A program made the position numbers and the translations under genes. Shown here piece after piece: positions 577 through 12,077 of a stretch of 64,000 nt of DNA. The stretch is from Microbispora sp. H11081. Lineage in GTDB: Bacteria > Actinomycetota > Actinomycetes > Streptosporangiales > Streptosporangiaceae. The notes below the pieces were generated by a model. That model was given only the letters and a program-made list of their open reading frames with translations, did no database searches and was not told the origin of the DNA. Every line of letters starts with the position of its first letter. The first letter of the stretch is position 1. Location of the stretch: assembly GCF_012999535.1 (NCBI RefSeq), contig NZ_JABBWV010000005.1, positions 124,001-188,000 of the forward strand, in the 5' to 3' direction.

Positions 577-960
577 GTGTCTCCCGTGACCGCCGCCGTC
601 GTACTGACCCCCGTGTCCGTCCCCGTCGCCGACCACGTGCTGGTCGCCGCGCTCGACGGCGCCCTGGACTACACGAACGCCGAACGGCTGCGCCTGGACG
701 TCGAGACGGCCCTCGGCGAGGATCGGGGCGAGCTCGTCCTCGACCTGAGCCTGCTGAGCTTCTGCGACTCCACGGGCATCCGCGTCCTGCTGTCGATGCG
801 CAAGCTGCTGGCGGAGCGGAACGGCGCCGTGACGCTGGCGGGCATGAACCCGCGGCTCACGAGGATCTTCAGAACCACCGGGCTGATCAACGCCTTCGCG
901 GTCGCTCCCGGCCTCCCTGAGGCCCTCGAGATGGTCGGCGCCCGGACCACCCCCAGGTGA
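577..960 (+). CDS. STAS-domain anti-sigma factor antagonist (RsbV/SpoIIAA type)
   Basis: A 127-residue single STAS-domain protein. The central motif CDSTGIRVLL (about residues 64-73) carries the serine that partner kinases phosphorylate in this family; unphosphorylated antagonist binds the anti-sigma kinase and frees the sigma factor. The start is GTG at 577, with another GTG three codons on. It is followed after 83 bp by a serine-kinase-type ATPase on the same strand, the expected partner. No sigma factor gene adjoins the pair, so the target sigma is unknown. Confidence 0.88.
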   Translation: MSPVTAAVVLTPVSVPVADHVLVAALDGALDYTNAERLRLDVETALGEDRGELVLDLSLLSFCDSTGIRVLLSMRKLLAERNGAVTLAGMNPRLTRIFRTTGLINAFAVAPGLPEALEMVGARTTPR

Positions 961-1043
961 AGGCATCGGACGGGCAACAAGACGGTAGCCTCGGAGGCAT
1001 CGGGCGGCAGCCCCAGCCGGGAAGGCAGCGGCGAGGAGGACAG

Positions 1044-1475
1044 GTGGCGGATCACCGCCGGCAGTGGCCGATAACGGATGATCTCGCGGCGCTGCGCGAG
1101 AACATCCAGCGGTACGCCGTGCAGGCAGGCCTCACCGGCCCCCGGCTGGACGACCTCGTCATCGCCGCCAACGAGGCCGCCATCAACGTGCTGGAGCACG
1201 GTGGAGGCACCGGCACGCTCGCGATCTCCTGCGACGGCGGCGTGGTCGCCGTCGACGTCGCCGACCGTGTCGGCGTGCTGCGGCCGGGTTCGGTGCCGGG
1301 CGAGCGGCCCGGCGGTCGCACCGACCGCGGCTTCGGACTGTGGCTCATGGGCGAACTGTGCGACTCGGTGACCATCGACCATGTCCCCGGTCAGTCGACC
1401 GTCAGGCTGTCCATGCGGGTGGACGACGATCCGGCCGCGGGCGCCACCTCCCTGCGTGGCGCCCACTCGGGCTGA
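1044..1475 (+). CDS. Anti-sigma factor serine kinase, HATPase_c (RsbW/SpoIIAB-like)
   Basis: The frame is open from 957, but the start is placed at GTG 1044 because GAGGAGGA lies just upstream (1033-1040) and the extra N-terminus is low-complexity. This gives 143 residues. It is a GHKL ATPase: the N-box reads VIAANEAAINVLEHG and the G-box RTDRGFGLWLM, both intact. In this family the protein binds a sigma factor and phosphorylates its STAS antagonist, here very probably the product of 577-960. The short tail after the G-box has no extra domain. Confidence 0.86.
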   Translation: MADHRRQWPITDDLAALRENIQRYAVQAGLTGPRLDDLVIAANEAAINVLEHGGGTGTLAISCDGGVVAVDVADRVGVLRPGSVPGERPGGRTDRGFGLWLMGELCDSVTIDHVPGQSTVRLSMRVDDDPAAGATSLRGAHSG

Positions 1476-1527
1476 GCGGGCGGCGCGGACCCAGGAAACC
1501 ATCCCGGCCTGCCCTTGGTTGACCCCG

Positions 1528-1544
1528 GGGATCGTCCCGATCCC
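1528..1544. terminator. Possible hairpin terminator after the anti-sigma pair
   Basis: GGGATCG-TCC-CGATCCC forms a perfect 7-bp stem with a 3-base loop, 53 bp after the kinase stop codon. There is no T-run, which is usual for actinomycete terminators, but the stem is short, so the call is tentative. Confidence 0.35.
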
Positions 1545-1620
1545 GTAAACCTGGTCTCCAGGGCTCTCCGGCCGTCTTAACCTGGGTCCGCGACCACCTT
1601 TCCTCAAGGCTGCTGGACGG

Positions 1621-1809
1621 CTACCTGAGGTATGCCCATGACGCGGCGGCAACCGCGATCAGGGCGCAGAGGCGGATGGTCCGGGGTGTGCTGTCAACCA
1701 CGTCCCGGACCGCTCTGGCCACCTCGGCGATCCACGAGCCGAATTCCGGGTCGTGAATGCGCCCTTCGATACGGCGTCCCGCGCTCGCGCGGGGCCTGAT
1801 AGCAGTCAT
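1621..1809 (-). CDS. Small protein with C-terminal membrane segment, function unknown
   Basis: A 62-residue ORF starting at ATG 1809 with a strong purine-rich ribosome site (GGGAGGGGG) about 5 bases upstream. The N-terminal half is basic and hydrophilic. Residues about 43-60 (TIRLCALIAVAAASWAYL) form one hydrophobic segment close to the C-terminus, as in tail-anchored small membrane proteins. I do not recognise a family. The good ribosome site and high third-position GC argue for a real gene; its short length argues for caution. Confidence 0.5.
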   Translation of the reverse strand: MTAIRPRASAGRRIEGRIHDPEFGSWIAEVARAVRDVVDSTPRTIRLCALIAVAAASWAYLR

Positions 1810-2313
1810 CGGGGCCCCCTCCCCATGTGCGCTGTCCGGGAACGACTCCCGGACGTCTCGATCGGCCCGATCAGGAATCCGTTCCCAGCCGGTACGGAGC
1901 GCTCCATGGGCGGAATCCCCGCCGCCGCAGCGCCGCCGACCCGGTTGGAGGGATTCCGGACCTTTCCCCGATGTTCACAGGTGAGCCGCCGTGCACGCAA
2001 CGAATGCGAGCGACATTCGGGGTTCCGTACGAAGAGTGACGATCAGATAACAGCTTGCGATAGCTTTTGGTCCTGATATGTCCTGCAACGCGTAGTTAGC
2101 TGTCCGATTTGTCCGTCGCCCTTTCCGGAATTTTGGGTCAGCGCGCGACACGCCGTCATTTGTCTCAGAGGACGGCATCGGGCGGCATATCCGGGCGATC
2201 GGATGGGGGCACCGGAGGCAATGTTACCGAACGTGACGCCACGGTCACGCCATGCGGAGCGGGCGGCGCGGCCGGACGGCCTCCCGGCGGGCGCCGCGAC
2301 CAGCCCGCCCGCG
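1810..2313. other. 504-bp intergenic region, no convincing gene
   Basis: The region contains short ORFs on both strands, but none has actinomycete-like third-position GC together with a ribosome site. The stretch 2000-2170 is distinctly AT-richer than its neighbours. It presumably carries the promoter of the small membrane protein gene that starts at 1809. I see no RNA gene. Confidence 0.4.
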
Positions 2314-3360
2314 TTACGGACGCGTGCCCGTGCCCGTCGTGACCTCCTTGAGCCGATTCCGGCCCGAGTCGGGCGCGAGCGGCGGGGTCTCCATGCCGGC
2401 GCCGCCCCGCATGCCCTCGATCACCGTGCGCAGCGCCTCCACGGCGTCGTGCCCCGGCCGCCAGCCCAGTTCCTCACGGGCGCGGGTGGTGTCCATGATC
2501 GGAATCTGCAGGACCATCTCCACCATGCCGGGCGAGGCGGGGATCAGCCGCAGGTGCCAGCCCGCCGACACCGCCGTGCGCACCACGGCGGCCGGGACGG
2601 GCACCCGCCGCGCCCCGAGCAGGTCCGCCAGCACGGCGGGGTCGATCACCGGATCGGCGGCCAGGTTGAACGCCCCCCGCACGTCGCGGGTGAGCGCCAG
2701 CCGGAACGCCTCGCCCGCGTCCCGCGAGTGCAGCGCCTGGAACCGCAGGCGCGGCAGGTCCGGCACGAACGGGAGCAACTCCGGGCGCACCAGGCGCCGC
2801 GGCAGGAACGGCCCGGCGAACAGCCGCCGCTGCTCGGTCGCCGCCTCCTCCTTGAAGATGAACCCCGGCCGCATCCGCACCACGCGGATTTCCGGGTGGT
2901 CGCGCTCGAAGATGTCGAGCACGCGCTCGACGTAGGCCTTCTCCCGGCCGTACGCGGCGTTCGGCCAGCCGTGGGTCGGCCAGGACTCGTCGACCGGCGG
3001 GCTCTTGGGCCCGGGGGAGTACGCCCCGACCGACGAGGAGTGCACGAGCACCGAGACCCCGGCGCGCGCCGCGGCGTCGAAGACGCGCGTGCTCCCGATC
3101 ACGTTGGACCTCCACGTGGCGACCGGGTCGTGCGTGGGCTGGAAGAGCCAGGCCAGGTGCACGACCGCGTCGGCGCCCGCGAAGATCGGGTCGAGGTCGT
3201 CCCGGTAGACGTCGGCCGTACGCCATTCGGTCTTCGCCGGGCGCCAGTCCGGCATCCGCCTGGCCACCCCGACGATCGAGGTCACGCCGGCCTCCGACTC
3301 GAGGGAGGTGAGCACGCTCGTGCCGACGTTCCCGCTCGCGCCAACCACGACAACTCGCAT
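2314..3360 (-). CDS. NAD-dependent epimerase/dehydratase family protein (extended SDR)
   Basis: A 348-residue extended short-chain dehydrogenase. The Rossmann motif GASGNVG is at residues 7-13 and the catalytic Tyr-x3-Lys appears as YGREK near residue 140, after VHSSSVGAYSP, which supplies the serine. Length and motifs fit sugar-nucleotide epimerases and related NAD(P)-dependent enzymes; the C-terminal substrate domain does not let me name the substrate. It starts at ATG 3360, divergent from the NERD-pseudokinase gene, and ends in a poorly conserved tail rich in T and G. Confidence 0.82.
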   Translation of the reverse strand: MRVVVVGASGNVGTSVLTSLESEAGVTSIVGVARRMPDWRPAKTEWRTADVYRDDLDPIFAGADAVVHLAWLFQPTHDPVATWRSNVIGSTRVFDAAARAGVSVLVHSSSVGAYSPGPKSPPVDESWPTHGWPNAAYGREKAYVERVLDIFERDHPEIRVVRMRPGFIFKEEAATEQRRLFAGPFLPRRLVRPELLPFVPDLPRLRFQALHSRDAGEAFRLALTRDVRGAFNLAADPVIDPAVLADLLGARRVPVPAAVVRTAVSAGWHLRLIPASPGMVEMVLQIPIMDTTRAREELGWRPGHDAVEALRTVIEGMRGGAGMETPPLAPDSGRNRLKEVTTGTGTRP

Positions 3361-3510
3361 GAAATACTCCGTTTCCGGACACTCGCCGACACAAACCCGC
3401 TTACCGGCCTCACTCGGTCACTCCCCGGCACGACGGCGATCATGCGACCCGGCGCGCCGGGCGCCAGATGTGGGAACTCCAGATTTCCCCTGGGACAATG
3501 CGGGGGAATC

Positions 3511-3533
3511 AGCGGTAGTGCGGGAATACCGCT
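3511..3533. promoter_or_regulatory. Inverted repeat upstream of the NERD-pseudokinase gene
   Basis: AGCGGTA-N9-TACCGCT is a perfect 7-bp inverted repeat about 50 bp before the ATG at 3584. Its size and place suit a dimeric repressor site or a leader hairpin. It also supports the downstream start, since it would otherwise be inside the coding region. Confidence 0.4.
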
Positions 3534-3583
3534 ATCTAGGAGGATCAAGTTCTCAATCTGGTCAGAGAGGCGGAGTAGCGGAG

Positions 3584-4987
3584 ATGGCTCAGATCGTCGG
3601 TGGCGGACGCCCCGTCAATGACGCCGAGCGAAGGGTCATCGCGCACCTGCGGGACAACGCCCCTGACGACTGGCTGCTGCTGCACAACATCGAGGTGCCG
3701 CGCGGCGCCGACCTGTTCGAGGTGGACGTGGTCGTGCTCACCGGCCACTCCCTCGTGGTGATCGACGTGAAGGGGGCCAGGGGCCGGTTCGAGGTGTCGG
3801 GCACCCGGTGGTTCCCCCAGCACCGGGAGGCGTTCGGCTCACCCGTGGCCAAGCTGCGCGGCACCGCCCGGGCGCTGAAGGGCCTGCTGATCGAGGAGCA
3901 CCGCGAACTGGAACGGCTGTACGTCGACAACGTGGTGGTGCTGACCGCCCCTGGAGCCGTCCTCGTCGACCCCAGCGGCCGCGACGCCCGCCACGTCACC
4001 ACCATCGCCGGGCTCATCCCCATGCTCAGCGACGCGTCCCGGGTCAGGCACGGATGCAGCAGGGACGCCGGGCCGTACCGGACCGCGATCATCGAGGCGC
4101 TGAACGGCACCGTGCGCCGCTCGACCGCGCCGCCGCGCTTCGGCAACTGGGAGGTGGAGGAGCAACTCGGCGGCGACAGCCGGGTCACCGAGTATCGCGC
4201 GGTCAACGCGACCGCCCCCACCAGTGGAACCGTGCTGCTGCGGGTCTACCGCGCCGACCCGCTGGCCGAGCAGCGGCGGCGGGTCGCCGAGCAGCGCAGG
4301 ATCGCCAACGCCTACCAGTCGCTCGCCAAGATCCCGCCGCACCCCTGCGTCGTACGCTCGCGGGACTTCTTCGCCATCGACGACGAGAGCCGGTTCGTGC
4401 TCGTGCTCGACGACGTGCACGGGCAGGCGCTGCACCTGCATCTGACCGGGCGGAAGCTGGGCATCGACGCCAAGCTCGGCGTGATGGAGGACATGCTGGA
4501 CGGCCTCGCCCACGTCCACGCCAACAACGTCATCCACCGCTCGCTGACCCCCGCCTGCGTGCTCGTCACCGACGACGGCAACGCGCTGCTGACCGGTTTC
4601 GACTACGCCAAGCCCGGCGCGCGCAAGCACACCGTGGCCAACGAGCTGCCGAACATCCTCGACGTCCACTACGTCGCCCCCGAGTGCCGGGCCAGGCCCG
4701 ACCGGATGACCCCCGCCGCCGACGTGTACTCGGCCGGGGTGATCGCCTTCCAGCTCCTGACCGGCGAGCTGCCCGTGCCGGGCGTGGACGCCGAGCCGGA
4801 CGCCGGCGGCGTCGCCCCCGAGGTCATGGACCTCGTGCGGCGGATGCGCGACCCCACGCCGGCCAAGCGCCCGGACGCGGCCACGGCCCTCGCCGAGTTG
4901 CGGGTGGCCCGCGACGCGCAGCCCCGGCGGCGCGCCCCGCTGGGCGGCAGGCTCAGGAACGCCCTGCGCCGCCTGTCCCGCCACTGA
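3584..4987 (+). CDS. NERD nuclease-like domain fused to a degenerate protein kinase (pseudokinase)
   Basis: 467 residues from ATG 3584; the frame stays open further upstream, but that part overlaps the divergent epimerase. Residues about 10-75 are a NERD domain: VDVVV with D48, and VIDVKGARG with D61-x-K63, match the PD-(D/E)xK nuclease core. Residues about 185-445 have a Ser/Thr kinase fold, but every catalytic motif is altered: no GxGxxG loop (LGGDSR), VLLRV in place of VAIK, HRSLTPACVL in place of HRDLKPxNVL (Ser320 for the catalytic Asp), and GFDYAK in place of DFGxAK (Gly338). The APE-like motif APECRARP remains. The family occurs in phage-defence proteins such as PglW, but no defence neighbours are seen here. 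Confidence 0.85.
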   Translation: MAQIVGGGRPVNDAERRVIAHLRDNAPDDWLLLHNIEVPRGADLFEVDVVVLTGHSLVVIDVKGARGRFEVSGTRWFPQHREAFGSPVAKLRGTARALKGLLIEEHRELERLYVDNVVVLTAPGAVLVDPSGRDARHVTTIAGLIPMLSDASRVRHGCSRDAGPYRTAIIEALNGTVRRSTAPPRFGNWEVEEQLGGDSRVTEYRAVNATAPTSGTVLLRVYRADPLAEQRRRVAEQRRIANAYQSLAKIPPHPCVVRSRDFFAIDDESRFVLVLDDVHGQALHLHLTGRKLGIDAKLGVMEDMLDGLAHVHANNVIHRSLTPACVLVTDDGNALLTGFDYAKPGARKHTVANELPNILDVHYVAPECRARPDRMTPAADVYSAGVIAFQLLTGELPVPGVDAEPDAGGVAPEVMDLVRRMRDPTPAKRPDAATALAELRVARDAQPRRRAPLGGRLRNALRRLSRH

Positions 4988-5111
4988 CTCACCGATCGGT
5001 CGTTTCCGGGGCCTCCCGGCCTCCCGGCCCGTCGCCGGGAGGCCGATCGACGTCGAGAACGGGACCTTCGTCCCTAACCCGCCCGCCTGTCGATCCCGCA
5101 GGCTTGCAGAC

Positions 5112-5519
5112 ATGAAGCTCGACTCGGCCGGCCTGGAGATCCTCAGCGGAGGAGAATGTCTGGACCTGCTGGCCTCCGCCCCCATCGGCAGGATCGTCTT
5201 CACCGATCGTGCCCTCCCCGCCGTCCAGCCGGTCAACTTCTGCCTGCTCGACGGGAACATCATCATCCGCACCGCCGCGGGTTCCAAGCTGGCCGCCGCC
5301 GCGCGCAACGCCATCGTCGCCTTCGAGGCCGACGACTTCGACGCGTCGTGCCGTACGGGGTGGTCGGTGACCGCGGTGGGCCCGGCCCGCGCGGTCTCGG
5401 AGCCGGAGGAGATCGCCCGCCTGTCGCGGCTGCCGCTCACCCCGTGGGTGCCCGGGAACCGTGACCACTTCATCGTCATGGCTCCCGAGCAGATCTCCGG
5501 CCGCCGGCTCAGCGCGTGA
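5112..5519 (+). CDS. Pyridoxamine 5'-phosphate oxidase-like flavin-binding protein
   Basis: A 135-residue protein of the split-barrel PNPOx-like superfamily. The N-terminal LASAPIGRIVFTDRALPAVQ followed by PVNFCLLDGNIIIRTAAGSKL is typical of this fold in actinomycetes, where members bind FMN, F420 or haem. Family members are often called PPOx class or nitroimidazole-reductase-like proteins. Its 3' end overlaps the convergent cydB gene by 11 bp (5509-5519). The substrate is unknown. Confidence 0.78.
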   Translation: MKLDSAGLEILSGGECLDLLASAPIGRIVFTDRALPAVQPVNFCLLDGNIIIRTAAGSKLAAAARNAIVAFEADDFDASCRTGWSVTAVGPARAVSEPEEIARLSRLPLTPWVPGNRDHFIVMAPEQISGRRLSA

Positions 5520-6483
5520 CCGTCAGACGCCGGCGGAACACCCAGTAGGTCCACGCCTGGTAGGCGAGGACCACCGGCGTGAAGATCGCCGCGACCCACG
5601 TCATGACGCCCAGCGTGTACGGCGTGGACGCGGCGTTCTGCACGGTCAGGCTGTTGGCGGGGTCGAGCGCGGGCATGACGTCCGGCCACAGTCCGCCGAA
5701 CAGCGTGACCGTGACCGCGACGATCGCGGCGGCGTTGGCGGCGAAGGCCCAGCCGTCACTGCCGCGCAGCGTCGCGACGAGCGCCCCGGCGATGCCCGCC
5801 GCGGCGACCGCCACGCTCGCCCAGGTGCCCGCGGTGCCGGTCATGAGCTGGGTGATCAGCAGGAACGTCCCGCCCAGGACGAGGGCGGCCAGGCCGGTCC
5901 ACCTGGCGGCCGTCCTCGCCCTGTCGCGCAGCTCACCGGTCGTCTTCAACGCGGTGAACACGGCGCCGTGCAGGGTGAAGAGCGCCAGCGTGGCCAGGCC
6001 GCCCAGCAGCGCGTACGGGTTCAGCAGGGTGAGCAGCCCGCCGGTGTACTCGTGGTCGGCGTCCAGCGGGACGCCCCGCACGATGTTGGCGAAGGCCACG
6101 CCCCACAGGAAGGCCGGGCCGAGCGAGCCCCAGAAGAACGCCCGGTCCCAGCCCCGGGTGCTGTCGCTCTTCGACCGGTACTCCAGGGCGACCCCGCGCA
6201 CGATCAGGGCCAGCAGGATCAGGAAGAGCGGCAGGTAGAAGCCGCTGAACAGGGTGGCGTACCACTCGGGGAAGGCGGCGAACGTCGCACCCCCCGCGAC
6301 CAGCAGCCACACCTCGTTGCCGTCCCAGACCGGGCCGATGGAGCGCACGAGCGTGCCGCGCTCGGCCTCGTCGCGGCCCAGCACCGGCAGCAGGATGCCG
6401 ACGCCGAAGTCGAACCCCTCCAGCACGAAGTAGCCCGTCCAGAGGACGGCGATGAGCAGGAACCAGACGGTGGTGAGTTCCAT
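5509..6483 (-). CDS. cydB: Cytochrome bd ubiquinol/menaquinol oxidase subunit II
   Basis: A 324-residue integral membrane protein with about eight to nine hydrophobic segments. It begins MELTTVWFLLIAVLWTGYFV and continues LEGFDFGVGILLP, the hallmark N-terminus of CydB; RSIGPVWDGNEVWLLVAGGA follows near residue 48. It pairs with CydA to form the oxygen-reducing bd oxidase of the cytoplasmic membrane. It lies 12 bp downstream of cydA on the same strand. No cydDC exporter genes follow within the window. Confidence 0.95.
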   Translation of the reverse strand: MELTTVWFLLIAVLWTGYFVLEGFDFGVGILLPVLGRDEAERGTLVRSIGPVWDGNEVWLLVAGGATFAAFPEWYATLFSGFYLPLFLILLALIVRGVALEYRSKSDSTRGWDRAFFWGSLGPAFLWGVAFANIVRGVPLDADHEYTGGLLTLLNPYALLGGLATLALFTLHGAVFTALKTTGELRDRARTAARWTGLAALVLGGTFLLITQLMTGTAGTWASVAVAAAGIAGALVATLRGSDGWAFAANAAAIVAVTVTLFGGLWPDVMPALDPANSLTVQNAASTPYTLGVMTWVAAIFTPVVLAYQAWTYWVFRRRLTVTR

Positions 6484-6495
6484 GACGGCGGTCCT

Positions 6496-7884
6496 TCAGT
6501 AGGAGAGTGCGGGGAGAGCGGGCACGTCCTCGCCGGCCGCGTCCTCGGGCTCGGGCCCCTTGCGGATGAACTTCAGCAGCAGGCGGACCTCGATGACCGC
6601 GAGCACGGCGTAGACCAGCGTGAAGCCGACCAGGGTGATGGCGACCTCGACGACGTCGGAGCCGGGGGAGACGGCGGACGCGGTCCGCATGATGCCGAAC
6701 ACGGTCCACGGCTGGCGGCCCATCTCGGTGAAGATCCACCCGAGCGTGTTGGCCAGGAAGGGAAGGCCGATGCCGAACACGGCGGCCCGGTACACCCAGG
6801 GGTTGGCCGGCATCCGTCCGCGCCTGGTCAGCCACAGCCCGGCCAGCGCGAGCAGCCCGGCCAGCGCGCCGAAGCCGATCATCAGCCGGAACGACCAGTA
6901 CGCGAGGCCGACGACGGGCCGGTAGTCGCCGGGGCCGTACATCGCCTCATACCTGGCCTGGATGTCGTTGATGCCCTCGACCTTGCCGTCCAGGGTGTTG
7001 GTGGACAGCAGGCTCAGGCCGTAGGGGATCTGGACGTTGATGTGGTTGCGGCCGTTCTCCACGTCGCCGACCGCGAAGATGGAGAAGCCCGCGGAGGTCT
7101 CGTCCTCCCACAGGGCCTCGGCGGCGGCCATCTTCATGGGCTGCTGCTCCGTCATGATCTGCGCCTGCCAGTGGCCGCTCAGCATCACGCCCGCGGACGC
7201 GACCAGCGTGACCGCCAGGGCGGTGCGGGCGGACTTCCGGAACAGGTCCTTCTCGCGCCCGCGCGCGAGTTGCCAGGCGCTCACGCCGATGACGAACGCC
7301 CCCGCCGACACGAACGCGCCGAAGATGACGTGGGGAAACGCCGCGAGGGTGGTCGAGTTGGTCAGCACGGCCCAGATGTCGGTGAGCTCGGCGCGCCCGG
7401 TGACGGGGTTGAGCCGGTAGCCGACCGGGTGCTGCATCCACGAGTTCGCCGCGAGGATGAAGTACGCCGAGAGGTTGGTGCCGATCGCGGCCAGCCAGAT
7501 CGTGGCGAGATGGACCCTCTTCGGCAGCTTGTCCCAGCCGAATATCCACAGGCCGAGGAAGGTGGACTCCAGGAAGAAGGCCATCAGTCCCTCCATCGCC
7601 AGCGGCGCGCCGAACACGTCCCCGACGAACCGCGAGTAGGCGCTCCAGTTCATCCCGAACTGGAACTCCTGGACGATGCCCGTGACGACGCCCATCGCGA
7701 AGTTGATCAGGAAGAGCCTGCCCCAGAACTTCGTCATCCGCAGATACGCCGCGTTCCCCGTACGGTGCCAGGCCGTTTGGAAACCGGCCACCAGGACCGA
7801 CAATCCGATGGTCAGAGGCACGAACAGGAAGTGGTAGACGGTCGTGATGCCGAACTGCCACCGAGACAGGTCAAGGACGTCCAT
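6496..7884 (-). CDS. cydA: Cytochrome bd ubiquinol/menaquinol oxidase subunit I
   Basis: The start is set at ATG 7884, with GGAG upstream, giving 462 residues beginning MDVLDLSRWQFGITTVYHFL. An upstream in-frame extension to 7980 lacks family similarity. His near residue 18 belongs to the haem ligand region, and GRQPWTVFG (about residues 388-396) is the conserved motif of the quinol-binding side. The Q-loop region is short, as in other Gram-positive CydA proteins. It carries haems b558, b595 and d and oxidises menaquinol under low oxygen. First gene of cydAB. Confidence 0.95.
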   Translation of the reverse strand: MDVLDLSRWQFGITTVYHFLFVPLTIGLSVLVAGFQTAWHRTGNAAYLRMTKFWGRLFLINFAMGVVTGIVQEFQFGMNWSAYSRFVGDVFGAPLAMEGLMAFFLESTFLGLWIFGWDKLPKRVHLATIWLAAIGTNLSAYFILAANSWMQHPVGYRLNPVTGRAELTDIWAVLTNSTTLAAFPHVIFGAFVSAGAFVIGVSAWQLARGREKDLFRKSARTALAVTLVASAGVMLSGHWQAQIMTEQQPMKMAAAEALWEDETSAGFSIFAVGDVENGRNHINVQIPYGLSLLSTNTLDGKVEGINDIQARYEAMYGPGDYRPVVGLAYWSFRLMIGFGALAGLLALAGLWLTRRGRMPANPWVYRAAVFGIGLPFLANTLGWIFTEMGRQPWTVFGIMRTASAVSPGSDVVEVAITLVGFTLVYAVLAVIEVRLLLKFIRKGPEPEDAAGEDVPALPALSY

Positions 7885-7940
7885 GGGGGCTCCACAGTCA
7901 TGAGGGACGTCTGAAGCCTGGCCGAGACGCGTTCTCTCCC

Positions 7941-7960
7941 CCAGGGCTACCGGACCCTGG
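7941..7960. promoter_or_regulatory. Inverted repeat upstream of cydA
   Basis: CCAGGG-N8-CCCTGG lies 57-76 bp before the cydA start in the divergent gap with the kinase-like gene at 8026. It does not resemble the TGTGA-N6-TCACA half-sites of Rex or Crp-type regulators that often control cyd genes, so no regulator is assigned. Confidence 0.3.
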
Positions 7961-8025
7961 CAGGAGGGGACCTTCGTCACGAGCCACTAGGGACTGTTGG
8001 CGATGATTGGGGCAATGATTGAGGG

Positions 8026-8652
8026 GTGCGTGCCCGTCCCGTCGCCCCGTCCCTGCTCGTGGAGGAACTCGCCGACCTGATCGCCGGCCGGCCGCGCGAC
8101 GCGTGGGTGCGCGTCGCCGTCGACGGCGCTCCCCCCGCCGAGCCCGGACGGCTGGCCGACGACCTGGTGGAGCCGCTGCGCCTGCGCGGCCGGGACGTCC
8201 TGCGGGTGCCCGCGGCGGGGTTCCTGCGCCCGGCCTCGCTGCGACTGGAGTTCGGCAGGACCGACCCCGACGCGTTCCACGACGAGTGGCTGGACGTGGG
8301 CGGCCTGCGCCGTGAGGTGCTCGGACCGCTGGAGAAGGGCCGTACGGGCCGGGTGCTGCCCTCGCTGTGGGACAGCGTGCGCGACCGGGCCACCCGCGCC
8401 GGCTACGTGACGCTGCGACCGGGCGGTGTGGTGCTGCTCGACGGCGCGCTGCTGCTCGGGCGCGGCCTGCCGTTCGACCTGACCGTCCACCTGTCCATGT
8501 CGGCCGCCGCGCTGGCCCGCCGCACGCCGCCCGAGGAGCGGTGGACGCTGCCCGCCTACGAACGGTACGAGCGCGAGACGGGCCCGGCGCGGGCCGCGGA
8601 CGTGACCGTCCGCGTCGAGGACCCGCGCCACCCCGCGATCATCAGTCTCTAG
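8026..8652 (+). CDS. Uridine kinase-like P-loop NTPase homolog with degenerate Walker A
   Basis: 208 residues from GTG 8026; a stop codon lies two codons upstream in frame and there is no ribosome site, so the transcript may be nearly leaderless. The fold resembles uridine kinase: a central strand VRVAVDG, then DFLRPASLRLEFG-like and VVLLDGALLLG segments. Where the family has GxxGxGKT, this protein has GAPPAEPGRL: both the lysine and the Ser/Thr that bind nucleotide phosphates are gone. FHDEWLDVGGLRREVLGPL matches the actinobacterial uridine-kinase-like family. Catalysis as a kinase is therefore doubtful. Confidence 0.72.
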   Translation: MRARPVAPSLLVEELADLIAGRPRDAWVRVAVDGAPPAEPGRLADDLVEPLRLRGRDVLRVPAAGFLRPASLRLEFGRTDPDAFHDEWLDVGGLRREVLGPLEKGRTGRVLPSLWDSVRDRATRAGYVTLRPGGVVLLDGALLLGRGLPFDLTVHLSMSAAALARRTPPEERWTLPAYERYERETGPARAADVTVRVEDPRHPAIISL

Positions 8653-8710
8653 AGGCCGTGCTCTCTAGAGGCCGTGCTCTCTAGAGGCCGTGCTCTCTAG
8701 AGGCCGTACG
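8647..8710. repeat. Tandem repeat, 16-bp unit x 4, at the convergent gene ends
   Basis: CTCTAGAGGCCGTGCT is repeated exactly at 8647, 8663 and 8679, with a fourth copy at 8695 that ends differently. Each unit carries the palindrome CTCTAGAG, so CTAG gives a TAG stop on both strands. The first copy holds the stop of the rightward gene (8652) and the last that of the leftward gene (8697). The unit is not a multiple of three. Confidence 0.95.
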
Positions 8711-10118
8711 CCTCCAGCAGGCGCAGCCACACCTCGCTGACGGTGGGATACGAGGGCACGGCGTGCCACAGGTCGTCGAGGGTCACCCCCGCCGTGACCG
8801 CGATCGTCGCGGCGTGCAGCAGTTCGGCCGCCCCGGGAGCAACGAAGGTGACGCCGAGCAGCACCCGGCGGCGCTCGTCGACCACCGCCTTGGCCCTGCC
8901 GCGATAGCCGTCGCCGAGCAGGTAGCCGCCCGCCACCTGCTCCATGTCGTACTCCACGGTCCGCACGTCGAAGCCATCCGCGCGGGCCTGCGCCTCCGTG
9001 CGGCCCACCGCGCACACCTGCGGGTCGGTGAAGACCACCTGCGGGGCCCCGGCGCGGTCCGCGCGGTCGCGCATCCCCGGCCGGTCGTCCGCCTCGCCGC
9101 GGGCGCGGGCGGCGACCACGTCCGCGGCCACCCGCGCCTGGTACTTGCCCATGTGCGTGAGGAGCGCGAGGCCGTTGACGTCCCCGATCGCGTAGAGCCA
9201 GCCGTCCGCCACGCCGGTGGCCCGCATGCTCTCGTCCACCTCGATCGGGCCCGTCTCCGGCAGCCCGGCCGTGGCCAGGCCGATGCCGTCGGTGGCGGAC
9301 CGGCGGCCGGCCGCGACCAGGATCTCGTCGGCCGTGATCGTCGCGCCGCTCGCGAGCCGCACCGTGACCTCGCCTCCGGGCTCGGGCCGTTCGACCTTCT
9401 CCGCGCTCTCGTGCAGGCGGACGTCGATCCCCTGCTCGGCCAGCGACCGCTTGACCATCTCCCCCGCGAAGGGCTCCACCCGCCCGAGCAGCTCGCCGCC
9501 CCGGACGAGCATCGTGACCTCGCGGGCGCCGAGCCCGCGCATGGCCTGGGCCATCTCGCACGCGACCACGCCGCCGCCGATCACCACGAGCCGGTCGGGT
9601 ACGGCACGCACACCGGTGACCTCGCGGTTCGTCCACGGCTCCGCCGCGGCGAGACCGGCCACGGGCGGGATCACCGGACGGCTTCCCGTGGCGAGCATGA
9701 CGGCGTGGTTCGCGAGGAGTGTGCGGGTGCCGCCGTCGGCCGTCGCGACCTCCACCCTTCGGGGGCCGGCGAGCCGCCCGGTGCCCCGCACGAGCGTCAC
9801 GCCCGCGGAGTCGAGCCAGCTCGCCTGCCCGGCGTCGTCGTAGTTCGACACCACGGCGTCACGCCGTGCGAGCACCGCGGCGGCGTCGATCGGCCCGCCG
9901 AGCCGCAGCCCGGGGACCCGGCCCACCTCGCCCGCGAGGTCCACCGGCCGCAGGAGCGCCTTGCTCGGCATGCACGCCCAGTAGGAGCACTCCCCTCCCG
10001 CCAGCTCGCTCTCCACGATGGCGGTGCTCAGGCCGGACGCGGCCACCCGCCCCGCGGCGACCTCGCCCGTCGAACCCGCGCCTACCACGATCACATCGAA
10101 AACGTCCACGGGCTCCAC
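8697..10118 (-). CDS. FAD-dependent pyridine nucleotide-disulfide oxidoreductase (LPD/mercuric-reductase-like)
   Basis: 473 residues from GTG 10118, chosen because AGGGGTG lies just upstream and the preceding gene stops 4 bp before; further extension would overlap it. The FAD site VIVVGAGSTGEVAAGR is at the N-terminus, the redox-active disulfide CSYWAC in GGECSYWACMPSKALL (Cys-x4-Cys), and the NAD(P) site VVIGGGVVACEMA. The C-terminal dimer motif reads HAVPSYPTVSE, as in many actinobacterial group I flavoproteins. It may reduce a low-molecular-weight disulfide; the substrate is unproven. It follows the response regulator gene and may be cotranscribed with it. Confidence 0.85.
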   Translation of the reverse strand: MEPVDVFDVIVVGAGSTGEVAAGRVAASGLSTAIVESELAGGECSYWACMPSKALLRPVDLAGEVGRVPGLRLGGPIDAAAVLARRDAVVSNYDDAGQASWLDSAGVTLVRGTGRLAGPRRVEVATADGGTRTLLANHAVMLATGSRPVIPPVAGLAAAEPWTNREVTGVRAVPDRLVVIGGGVVACEMAQAMRGLGAREVTMLVRGGELLGRVEPFAGEMVKRSLAEQGIDVRLHESAEKVERPEPGGEVTVRLASGATITADEILVAAGRRSATDGIGLATAGLPETGPIEVDESMRATGVADGWLYAIGDVNGLALLTHMGKYQARVAADVVAARARGEADDRPGMRDRADRAGAPQVVFTDPQVCAVGRTEAQARADGFDVRTVEYDMEQVAGGYLLGDGYRGRAKAVVDERRRVLLGVTFVAPGAAELLHAATIAVTAGVTLDDLWHAVPSYPTVSEVWLRLLEAYGL

Positions 10119-10122
10119 ACTG

Positions 10123-10860
10123 TCACCCCTGCGGCCGTGAGGTGGAGACCAGGCCGCCCTCATAGGCGGCGATGACCAGCTGTGCCCGATCGCGTGCGCC
10201 GAGTTTGGCGAGCACGTGGCCGATGTGGGTCTTCACGGTGGCCGTGCTGACGTGCAGGTTCGCGGCGATCTCCAGGTTGGACAGGCCGCGCGCGACGAGC
10301 GTGAGCACCTCCCGCTCGCGGCCGGTCAGCCCGTCCAGCGCTCCCGTGGCGCGGTCGGGGCTCGTGGCCGGGTCACGGGCGAACTGTGCCGACCGGGCAA
10401 ACTGTGTCGACCGGGCGAACTGTGTCGACTGGGCAAACTGGGCGATCAGCCGCCGCGTCACGCTCGGCGCCAGCAGACCCTCCCCCTCGGCTATGACGCG
10501 GATCGCGGCCAGCAGGTCGGCGGGCGGGGTGTTCTTCAGCATGAACCCGCTCGCCCCGGCCCGCAGCCCCGCGTAGACGTACTCGTCGAGGTCGAACGTG
10601 GTGAGGATCAGCACCCTGACGCCGAGGGGTTCCGCGCAGATGCGCCGGGTCGCCTCGATGCCGTCCATGCCCGGCATCCGCACGTCCATCAGCACGACGT
10701 CGGGGCGCTCGGCGCGGGCCAGTTCGACGGCCCGCGCCCCGGTGCCCGCCTCGCCGACCGCCACCAGTCCCGGCGTGCTGTCGACCAGCAGGCGCAGGCT
10801 GCCGCGCAGCAGTTCCTGGTCGTCGGCGAGCAACACCCGGATCGGAGCCGGATCGTTCAC
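10123..10860 (-). CDS. NarL/FixJ-type response regulator with repeat-expanded linker
   Basis: 245 residues. The receiver domain (about 8-125) has the acidic pair DD, the phospho-acceptor Asp in VVLMDVRMPGMDG, and the conserved Lys in FMLKNTPP. A LuxR-type helix-turn-helix follows at about 175-235 (LTGREREVLTLVARGLSNLEIA). Between them sits an unusual run of six-residue repeats, QFARST-like, four copies. GTG 10860 overlaps the stop of the sensor kinase gene by 4 bp, so the two are translationally coupled. Likely targets are the divergent ABC transporter genes. Confidence 0.93.
   Translation of the reverse strand: MNDPAPIRVLLADDQELLRGSLRLLVDSTPGLVAVGEAGTGARAVELARAERPDVVLMDVRMPGMDGIEATRRICAEPLGVRVLILTTFDLDEYVYAGLRAGASGFMLKNTPPADLLAAIRVIAEGEGLLAPSVTRRLIAQFAQSTQFARSTQFARSAQFARDPATSPDRATGALDGLTGREREVLTLVARGLSNLEIAANLHVSTATVKTHIGHVLAKLGARDRAQLVIAAYEGGLVSTSRPQG
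10377..10446. repeat. In-frame tandem repeat, 18-bp unit x about 4, in the response regulator gene
   Basis: Units start at 10377, 10395 and 10413, with a diverging fourth at 10431; each reads GGGC(G/A)AACTGTG(C/T)CGAC(C/T). On the coding strand they encode repeated QFARS(T/A) hexapeptides in the linker between receiver and DNA-binding domain. The unit keeps the reading frame. Confidence 0.93.
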
Positions 10861-12077
10861 ATCCCCTCCCCTCGCAGCGGCAGGAGTGCGCGCACCCGGA
10901 ACCCGCCGCCGGGCAGCGGGCCGGCCGCGAAGTCCCCGCCGTACGCCGTGACGCGCTCGCGCATGCCGATCAGGCCGTGTCCGATCACGCCCTGCCCGTT
11001 CCCCCCGTGCCCGTTCCCCCCGTGCCCGTTCACCCCGTGCCCGGCTGGGCCGGGGGGCAGGACCCGGCGCCCCGGTCCGTCATCGGTCACCTCGACGCAC
11101 AACCGTCCCCCCTCGTCGTCCACCCGGACCCGGCAGCGGGCCGGGGCGGCGTGCCTGACCACGTTCGTGACGGCCTCCTGGACGATCCGGTAGACCGCGA
11201 GTTCCAGCACCTCGGGCAGGCCGTCCGCCACCCGCAGGTCCAGCTCCACCCGCACGCCCGCGGACGCGGCCCGCTCGGCGACGTACGGCAGCGCCGCGAG
11301 GCCCGGCACGGGAGACAGTCCCTCCGGCTCAGCGCCGGGAGCGGTGCGCAGGACGCCGAGCAGATGCCGCATCTCGGTCAGCGCCTGCCTGCTCGTGCTC
11401 TCGATGACCCGCAACGCCTCCAGCGCCTCCTCCGGCCGCCGGTCGGCCACGTGCGCCGCGACCCCGGCCTTCACCCCGATGAGGCTGAGCGTGTGGGAGA
11501 CCACGTCGTGCATCTCCCTCGCGATGCGCAGCCGCTCCTCGGTGACGGCGTGCTGGGCGGCCTGCTCGGCCCGGCGGGCCGCGTACGCCCGGCGCTCCCG
11601 CACCGCCCTGCCGATCGTCCAGGCGCCGCCCAGCGCGAGCGCGGCCAGCACGGCGGTCTCCGTGATGCGCCTGACCTCGGTCTCGGCCGACACCCCGCCG
11701 ACCGCCGCGAACAGCAGTGCCCCCGCGGTCAGCACGCCGATCACCCCCGTCGGTTCCCACCGGCGCCGCCGCGTCGAGAGCGCGACCGGATACAGCGCGT
11801 ACGCCGCGGCGGCCAGCGGCTCCCGCGTGACGCCGAGCATCATGGCCGCCACGGACGCGGCCATGACGACGCAGAACACCGGCAGCGGCCACCGCCGCCT
11901 CGCCGCGAGCGGCAGCGTCATCGCGGCGACGAGGGCCAGGCCCACCGGGCCGTACCTGCCCGCGGGACCGACGACCAGCACGAACGCGTAGCCCAGCCCG
12001 GCCAGCGCGTCGAGCGCGACCAGTTCCCGGGTGCGCAGCGGCCGGGGGAACAACGGCCGCACGTCCGGATCGTCCAC
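10857..12077 (-). CDS. Sensor histidine kinase (HisKA_3 type) with Gly/His/Asn repeat insert in the ATP lid
   Basis: 406 residues from GTG 12077. Residues about 20-165 contain several membrane segments. The phosphorylated His is in AREMHDVVSHTL, followed by the HisKA_3 helix and the HATPase domain with N-box VQEAVTNVVRHA and D-box VTDDGPG. Between the D-box and GHGLIGMRERV, the normal lid is lengthened by GHGGNGHGGNG-type repeats. It is the NarL-type partner of the gene at 10123-10860 and lies divergently from an ABC transporter, an arrangement common for drug- or lipid-responsive systems. Confidence 0.92.
   Translation of the reverse strand: MDDPDVRPLFPRPLRTRELVALDALAGLGYAFVLVVGPAGRYGPVGLALVAAMTLPLAARRRWPLPVFCVVMAASVAAMMLGVTREPLAAAAYALYPVALSTRRRRWEPTGVIGVLTAGALLFAAVGGVSAETEVRRITETAVLAALALGGAWTIGRAVRERRAYAARRAEQAAQHAVTEERLRIAREMHDVVSHTLSLIGVKAGVAAHVADRRPEEALEALRVIESTSRQALTEMRHLLGVLRTAPGAEPEGLSPVPGLAALPYVAERAASAGVRVELDLRVADGLPEVLELAVYRIVQEAVTNVVRHAAPARCRVRVDDEGGRLCVEVTDDGPGRRVLPPGPAGHGVNGHGGNGHGGNGQGVIGHGLIGMRERVTAYGGDFAAGPLPGGGFRVRALLPLRGEGM
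10995..11039. repeat. In-frame tandem repeat, 15-bp unit x 3, in the sensor kinase gene
   Basis: CCCGTTCCCCCCGTG occurs at 10995 and 11010 and, with one change, at 11025; degenerate copies flank it. On the coding strand the units encode N-G-H-G-G pentapeptides inside the ATP-lid loop of the kinase domain. Confidence 0.93.

Follow-up and report, generated by a model that had tools for sequence, protein, structure and literature searches.

The co-occurrence of NERD and pseudokinase domains is credited to Kwon et al. 2019 in the accessible part of PMC9040797. According to the accessible text of a 2026 paper (PMC12839542), PglW and some DndF proteins carry a NERD domain, an inactive kinase domain and an active kinase domain, and the NERD domain of PglW has been proposed to act as a backup or suicidal nuclease; MAD6 is not mentioned in that accessible text. 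PglW consists of 1400-1600 amino acids, in which the NERD domain is followed by an atypical kinase domain without an ATP site, and the protein also contains a second, active kinase domain, wHTH modules and an inactive STAND domain, as described in the accessible portions of PMC4365076 and PMC12839542. The residue K677 of the second kinase is essential (PMC4365076, accessible portion). In the DndF subset, the NERD domain and the inactive kinase domain are accompanied by an active kinase domain and a P-loop nucleotide kinase (PMC12839542, accessible text). A smaller NERD protein is SmdA of Staphylococcus aureus, a conserved chromosomal protein of 302 amino acids encoded by a monocistronic gene, which is a membrane protein with a predicted transmembrane helix and affects cell morphology; the accessible part of PMC9040797 reports no kinase fold for it and states that it is missing several NERD residues that rank among the most conserved. 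In the open-access literature, no paper was found on the function of the dead kinase domain in PglW, MAD6 and some DndF proteins, nor one describing a NERD-pseudokinase that stands alone as a core gene of the family studied here.

The window analyzed here is the whole stretch of 64,000 nucleotides from the soil actinomycete Microbispora sp. H11081. On its plus strand, a gene extends from an ATG at position 3584 to a stop codon ending at 4987 and encodes a protein of 467 amino acids, in which Pfam identifies a NERD domain followed by a kinase fold. The NERD match (PF08378, residues 12-121, E 1.8e-17) scores 64.3 bits against a cut-off of 22.1, and the Pkinase match (PF00069, residues 231-435, E 9.4e-21) scores 74.8 bits against a cut-off of 31.7; because both scores are far over the cut-offs, neither match is due to chance. 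The gene product is a real, conserved NERD-pseudokinase and a shortened, fixed relative of the front half of MAD6 and PglW, whose anatomy and distribution are well supported by the comparisons given below. The conservation of single residues was determined in an alignment of 81 sequences, consisting of the best 80 of 95 relatives found by a search of genome contigs and the window's own copy, with members from Microbispora, Sphaerimonospora, Planotetraspora, Microtetraspora, Streptosporangium, Planomonospora, Planobispora, Nonomuraea and Thermocatellispora.

The NERD domain is located at 3617..3946 on the plus strand. Asp48 (3725..3727) and the motif D61-V62-K63 (3764..3772) are invariant in all 81 sequences, as is K90. 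The preliminary description, which was made from the DNA sequence alone, had named D48 and D61-x-K63 as retained nuclease-type residues, and this assignment is correct; loss of the NERD active site within the family, which would have spoken against a nuclease, was not seen in any of the 81 sequences. The AlphaFold2 model of residues 1-175 is confident, with a pLDDT of 86.7. The Foldseek search with this model gave a weak result, where the best E-value was 1.6e-3 and none of the 502 matches reached E ≤ 0.001. Many of the 50 matches listed are nucleases of the PD-(D/E)XK type, among them Bax1, Can2, Holliday junction resolvases, EndoMS and McrBC, and R2 retrotransposon and viral polymerase proteins are listed as well. 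The NERD domain is under purifying selection, with dN/dS values of 0.035-0.136 (NG86, 11 pairs with the window gene).

The pseudokinase domain comprises residues 186-435 (4139..4888, plus strand), and Foldseek matches the full-length model, which is of moderate quality (pLDDT 70.7), to PknB and other kinases. All the kinase motifs are replaced, as had been pointed out from the sequence. The lysine of the VAIK motif is replaced by Arg220 (4241..4243), and arginine occupies this position in 81 of the 81 sequences. The aspartate of the HRD motif is replaced by Ser320 (4541..4543), where 79 of the 81 sequences have alanine and two have serine, and the aspartate of the DFG motif is replaced by Gly338 (4595..4597, within TGFDY), which is invariant. 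The glycine loop is replaced by GGD at residues 196-198, which is likewise invariant, as are E236 and K343. An alignment of homologs had been proposed as a check on whether these replacements are a property of the family, and they are conserved throughout it; orthologs with intact kinase motifs, which had been named as the result that would speak for a recent decay, did not appear (0/81). A recent decay of the kinase is ruled out by the losses shared among all 81 orthologs, and the domain, as judged from its residues, is an established family-wide pseudokinase. With dN/dS values of 0.07-0.39 in the same 11 pairs, the pseudokinase is also under purifying selection.

A variable linker leads from the pseudokinase to a putative basic amphipathic helix at the C-terminus (residues 455-465, 4946..4978, plus strand), which is predicted from its charge and hydrophobic moment and is seen in the full-length model at low confidence. 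The net charge of the last 20 residues is at least +3 in all 81 aligned sequences, and the hydrophobic moment of the tail ranks within the top 10% of shuffles for only 59 of the 81. Conservation is lowest in the tail, with dN/dS values of 0.24-0.63 in the same pairs.

The preliminary description cited PglW as an example of a NERD-kinase fusion, and the domain order is shared with it; among the relatives found, however, MAD6 of the MADS system is the closest. The NCBIfam model NF047741, which represents MAD6, methylation-associated defense system protein kinase, scores the window protein at 503.3 bits against a cut-off of 460, where only positions 1-467 of its 612 positions are covered, and 96 of the 98 short orthologs described below also pass this cut-off. 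The first ~440 amino acids of actinobacterial MAD6 examples are 52-60% identical to the window protein and contain a NERD domain and a first kinase domain that share with it the arginine in place of lysine, HRA and TGFD. The full MAD6 proteins examined, in contrast, have ~1350-1390 amino acids and carry both an intact second kinase and a P-loop ATPase; their genes occur together with MAD2, MAD3, MAD5 and MAD7, whereas the window gene has no such neighbors. The window protein ends at residue 467, its only kinase fold lacks the Lys, the HRD Asp and the DFG Asp, and the C-terminal P-loop ATPase, whose motif is found in 21 of 22 long relatives, is absent. Membership of MAD6 is thus ruled out by the missing live kinase, ATPase and MADS neighbors, and the automatic label of 'defence kinase' is probably wrong for the window protein.

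A search of the window's own genome gave no match to the C-terminal ATPase half of MAD6 at E ≤ 1e-5, which rules out a split gene with this half encoded elsewhere, the ATPase half being the part that was searched. Across 60 genomes, the same half was matched in two, each time inside an open frame of 1270 amino acids. Of MAD2, MAD3, MAD5 and MAD7, the genome-wide search covered MAD2, which gave no hit over the cut-off in the own genome.

Long relatives are encoded in 10 of 297 genomes of the order, as open frames of 1352-1382 amino acids with 55-61% identity to the window protein. Neighbors were scanned for two of them: MAD2, MAD3, MAD5 and MAD7 lie beside the long gene at locus L095, where MAD5 was scanned on the overlapping locus L085, and MAD2 and MAD7 lie beside the long gene at L096; a long MAD6 within a MADS cluster is also present on a Piscinibacter plasmid (L134). 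In the 22 aligned long relatives, the first kinase retains neither the Lys (0/22) nor the HRD Asp (0/22), and the DFG Asp is retained in the six most distant ones. The second kinase has HxD in 22 of 22 and DF[GN] in 21 of 22, and a simple glycine-loop pattern is found in only some of them; many of the locus copies in which the P-loop was counted end before the end of the protein. The first kinase of the Piscinibacter MAD6 has arginine in place of lysine and HRN, but keeps DFD, which indicates that the degeneration of the first kinase is old and graded. In one locus (L099, 7545-10280), a NERD-kinase-kinase protein of 911 amino acids has no P-loop motif, and its C-terminal part resembles a receiver domain by eye.

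The PglW model NF033442 scores the window protein at 109 bits against a cut-off of 990. Membership of PglW is ruled out by this score and the missing second kinase, and no PADLOC match to Pgl or BREX was found among the ten neighbors at 577-12077. The window pseudokinase corresponds to the first, dead kinase domain of PglW. The kinase of PglW had been cited as thought to be active, which is right for the second domain and wrong for the atypical one adjacent to NERD (accessible portions of PMC4365076 and PMC12839542). The DndF subset shares the first two modules with the window protein and is set apart from it by description only. In MAD6 and PglW, the dead kinase presumably gates the adjacent live kinase.

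The distribution of the short form was surveyed in 297 genomes of the order, which were searched both with the MAD6 model and with the window protein, and the two hand-read lists obtained from these searches agree on the tally. All 98 sampled genomes of 15 genera (15, 43, 16, 5, 4, 4, 2 and 2 genomes in eight genera and one genome in each of the other seven) carry the short form as a single copy; judging from the named relatives in the genome-contig search, these genera would represent the Microbispora-Nonomuraea-Streptosporangium group. No stop codon occurs inside the match in any of the 98 copies. The other 199 genomes gave no short-form match at E ≤ 1e-20, and ten of these match at this threshold through a longer protein. 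The search of 296 genomes of the class found eight matches outside the family, all in long open frames of 1299-1571 amino acids, and that of 246 genomes of the phylum found only the own gene and two of these class-level long matches; the order, class and phylum searches score few candidates per genome, and misses are possible in them. Two phage records gave a match, and in neither does it extend over 80% of the protein. Among plasmid records, this coverage is reached in 3 of the 12 with a match, namely a Nonomuraea replicon of 11.85 Mb (73%), which is labelled a plasmid and looks like a chromosome in size, the Piscinibacter MADS plasmid (44%, the long MAD6) and a Phocaeicola record (23%).

The short forms constitute a monophyletic clade, with a support of 1.0 in the FastTree tree (81 short and 22 long sequences) and 100/96 in the IQ-TREE tree (28 short and 23 long sequences). 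Support is weak for a grouping of this clade with the 11 MAD6-type proteins from actinobacteria (0.592 in FastTree, 22.6/75 in IQ-TREE); the trees include one MAD6 from other phyla. Because all the sequences outside the short clade come from longer proteins (at least 911 amino acids), the simplest account is that the C-terminal half was lost, and the short form would have arisen in this manner.

As the preliminary description had stated, the gene stands alone, in the sense that its upstream neighbor is divergently oriented and a gap of 124 bp precedes the next gene on its own strand. The neighbors in the window include a divergent NAD-dependent epimerase gene, a pyridoxamine-oxidase-like gene after the 124-bp gap and cytochrome bd oxidase genes. 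Nine of the ten neighbors at 577-12077 have no PADLOC match at E ≤ 1e-5, and none is a specific defense gene; the remaining one encodes a LuxR-type regulator, whose match to two CARF models is confined to its helix-turn-helix end. In relatives, where neighboring genes were called by an ORF filter, the epimerase gene is the upstream neighbor in 18 loci (L005-L022), and elsewhere only L064 has a copy, which lies ~5 kb away. Gene contexts differ between genera, which rules out a shared functional neighborhood. Several loci of Microbispora and Planotetraspora, but not the window, have a LuxR-type response regulator gene (7475-8113 in L005) directly after the gene. In 18 loci of the Nonomuraea group, the upstream gene on the opposite strand is, as we presume, MarR-like. 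A second NERD protein of 279 amino acids with an apparent membrane segment by eye is encoded in the same genome at L105 (3558-4397), and the gene just after it is presumably dihydroxy-acid dehydratase-like.

The ~75 bp before the ATG (3508..3583, plus strand) are conserved across Microbispora, Sphaerimonospora and Planotetraspora in an alignment of 19 upstream regions. They contain AGGAGGAT, which starts 46-49 bp before the ATG, is present upstream in 16 of 17 relatives and is too far from the ATG to be the ribosome site of the gene itself. An upstream inverted repeat had been reported for this gene; it exists at 3511..3533, with arms of 7 bp at 3511-3517 and 3527-3533 and a gap of 9 bp, but it is not conserved. 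None of 17 close relatives has exact 7-bp arms with a 9-bp gap within 100 bp before the gene, and an operator common to the family is ruled out on this basis. In the upstream regions of seven Nonomuraea loci (L045, L046, L049, L055, L062, L070 and L082), palindromes similar to TGACAACATnnTGTCA lie less than 100 bp upstream of the gene. Scans of the locus for sigma-70 promoters, terminators and Rfam families gave no hits.

The best explanation, to which we assign an even chance of being correct, is that the front half of a former MAD6/PglW-like defense protein has been fixed as a core gene, in which the non-catalytic kinase fold controls the NERD domain. The large ancestors would have been tandem-kinase defense proteins composed of NERD, a dead kinase, a live kinase and then P-loop or sensor domains. 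The halves with the live kinase and the ATPase would have been lost once, at or before the base of the 15 genera of the family, and the remaining front half would have become a fixed chromosomal gene. The NERD domain, with its metal-binding and catalytic residues, may cut or bind nucleic acid, and the pseudokinase, which would transfer no phosphate, may act as an allosteric or partner-docking module that restrains NERD for as long as no partner or ligand is bound. Through its basic terminal helix, the protein may be tethered to DNA or a membrane, and its role would be one other than phage defense. A pseudokinase-controlled nuclease is plausible; the more specific proposal that the sensor-effector half of the phage-defense protein MAD6 was domesticated once as a housekeeping regulator of the clade, where the dead kinase gates the NERD nuclease alone, is possible and rather doubtful.

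Core status does not preclude an immune function. The protein may serve as a constitutive one-gene defense nuclease throughout the clade, in which NERD is released once the pseudokinase detects a phage protein or nucleotide; its nearest relatives, MAD6 and PglW, are defense proteins, and the backup or suicidal role proposed for NERD in PglW (PMC12839542, accessible text) agrees with such a function. Defense genes are usually patchy in distribution. The short form occurs in 98 of 98 genomes, whereas the full MAD6 is sporadic in the same sample (10 of 297 genomes at 55-61% identity), the ten neighbors include no specific defense gene, and both domains are under purifying selection, so that we consider this function unlikely. 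The single-copy core status and the lack of a specific defense neighbor also argue against the mobile one-gene switch that had been suggested for this gene. If NERD were non-catalytic in the cell, the protein could be a scaffold, perhaps in the coordination of cell division or the envelope, like the monocistronic membrane protein SmdA with its effect on cell morphology (PMC9040797, accessible part), and the basic amphipathic tail could bind the membrane. However, the NERD residues missing from SmdA according to the same part of PMC9040797 stand against D48, D61, K63 and K90 in all 81 sequences here, which makes a scaffold distinctly unlikely.

An action in trans, as a decoy, inhibitor or immunity partner of full-length MAD6- or PglW-type proteins through the shared NERD-pseudokinase half, would be compatible with the 52-60% identity to the corresponding half of MAD6 and with the presence of both forms in two genomes (G087 and G168). 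These two are, however, the only ones of the 98 short-form genomes in which a long protein of the MAD6 type was matched at E ≤ 1e-20, no MAD2 exceeds the cut-off in the own genome, and some other reason is required for fixation in the remaining 96, although some of the 96 do hold more distant long NERD-kinase proteins; we regard an action in trans as very improbable. The absence of all three catalytic kinase residues could also be expected of a decayed kinase gene on its way out. The losses are nevertheless common to the 81 orthologs, those of the Lys and the HRD Asp extend to the first kinase of all 22 long relatives, dN/dS is less than 1 and no copy among the 98 has an internal stop, and there is hardly any likelihood that the gene is decaying.

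The NF047741 label is obtained by a core protein without kinase motifs or the surrounding system, and it would inflate the counts of MADS in these genera. The protein of 467 amino acids, which consists only of NERD and a dead kinase and is kept throughout the 98 sampled genomes of the 15 genera, offers a small system for a direct test of what the dead kinase does. If the front half of a defense protein was indeed domesticated as a core gene, this family would provide a natural minimal module for testing the role of the conserved pseudokinase of the large defense proteins.
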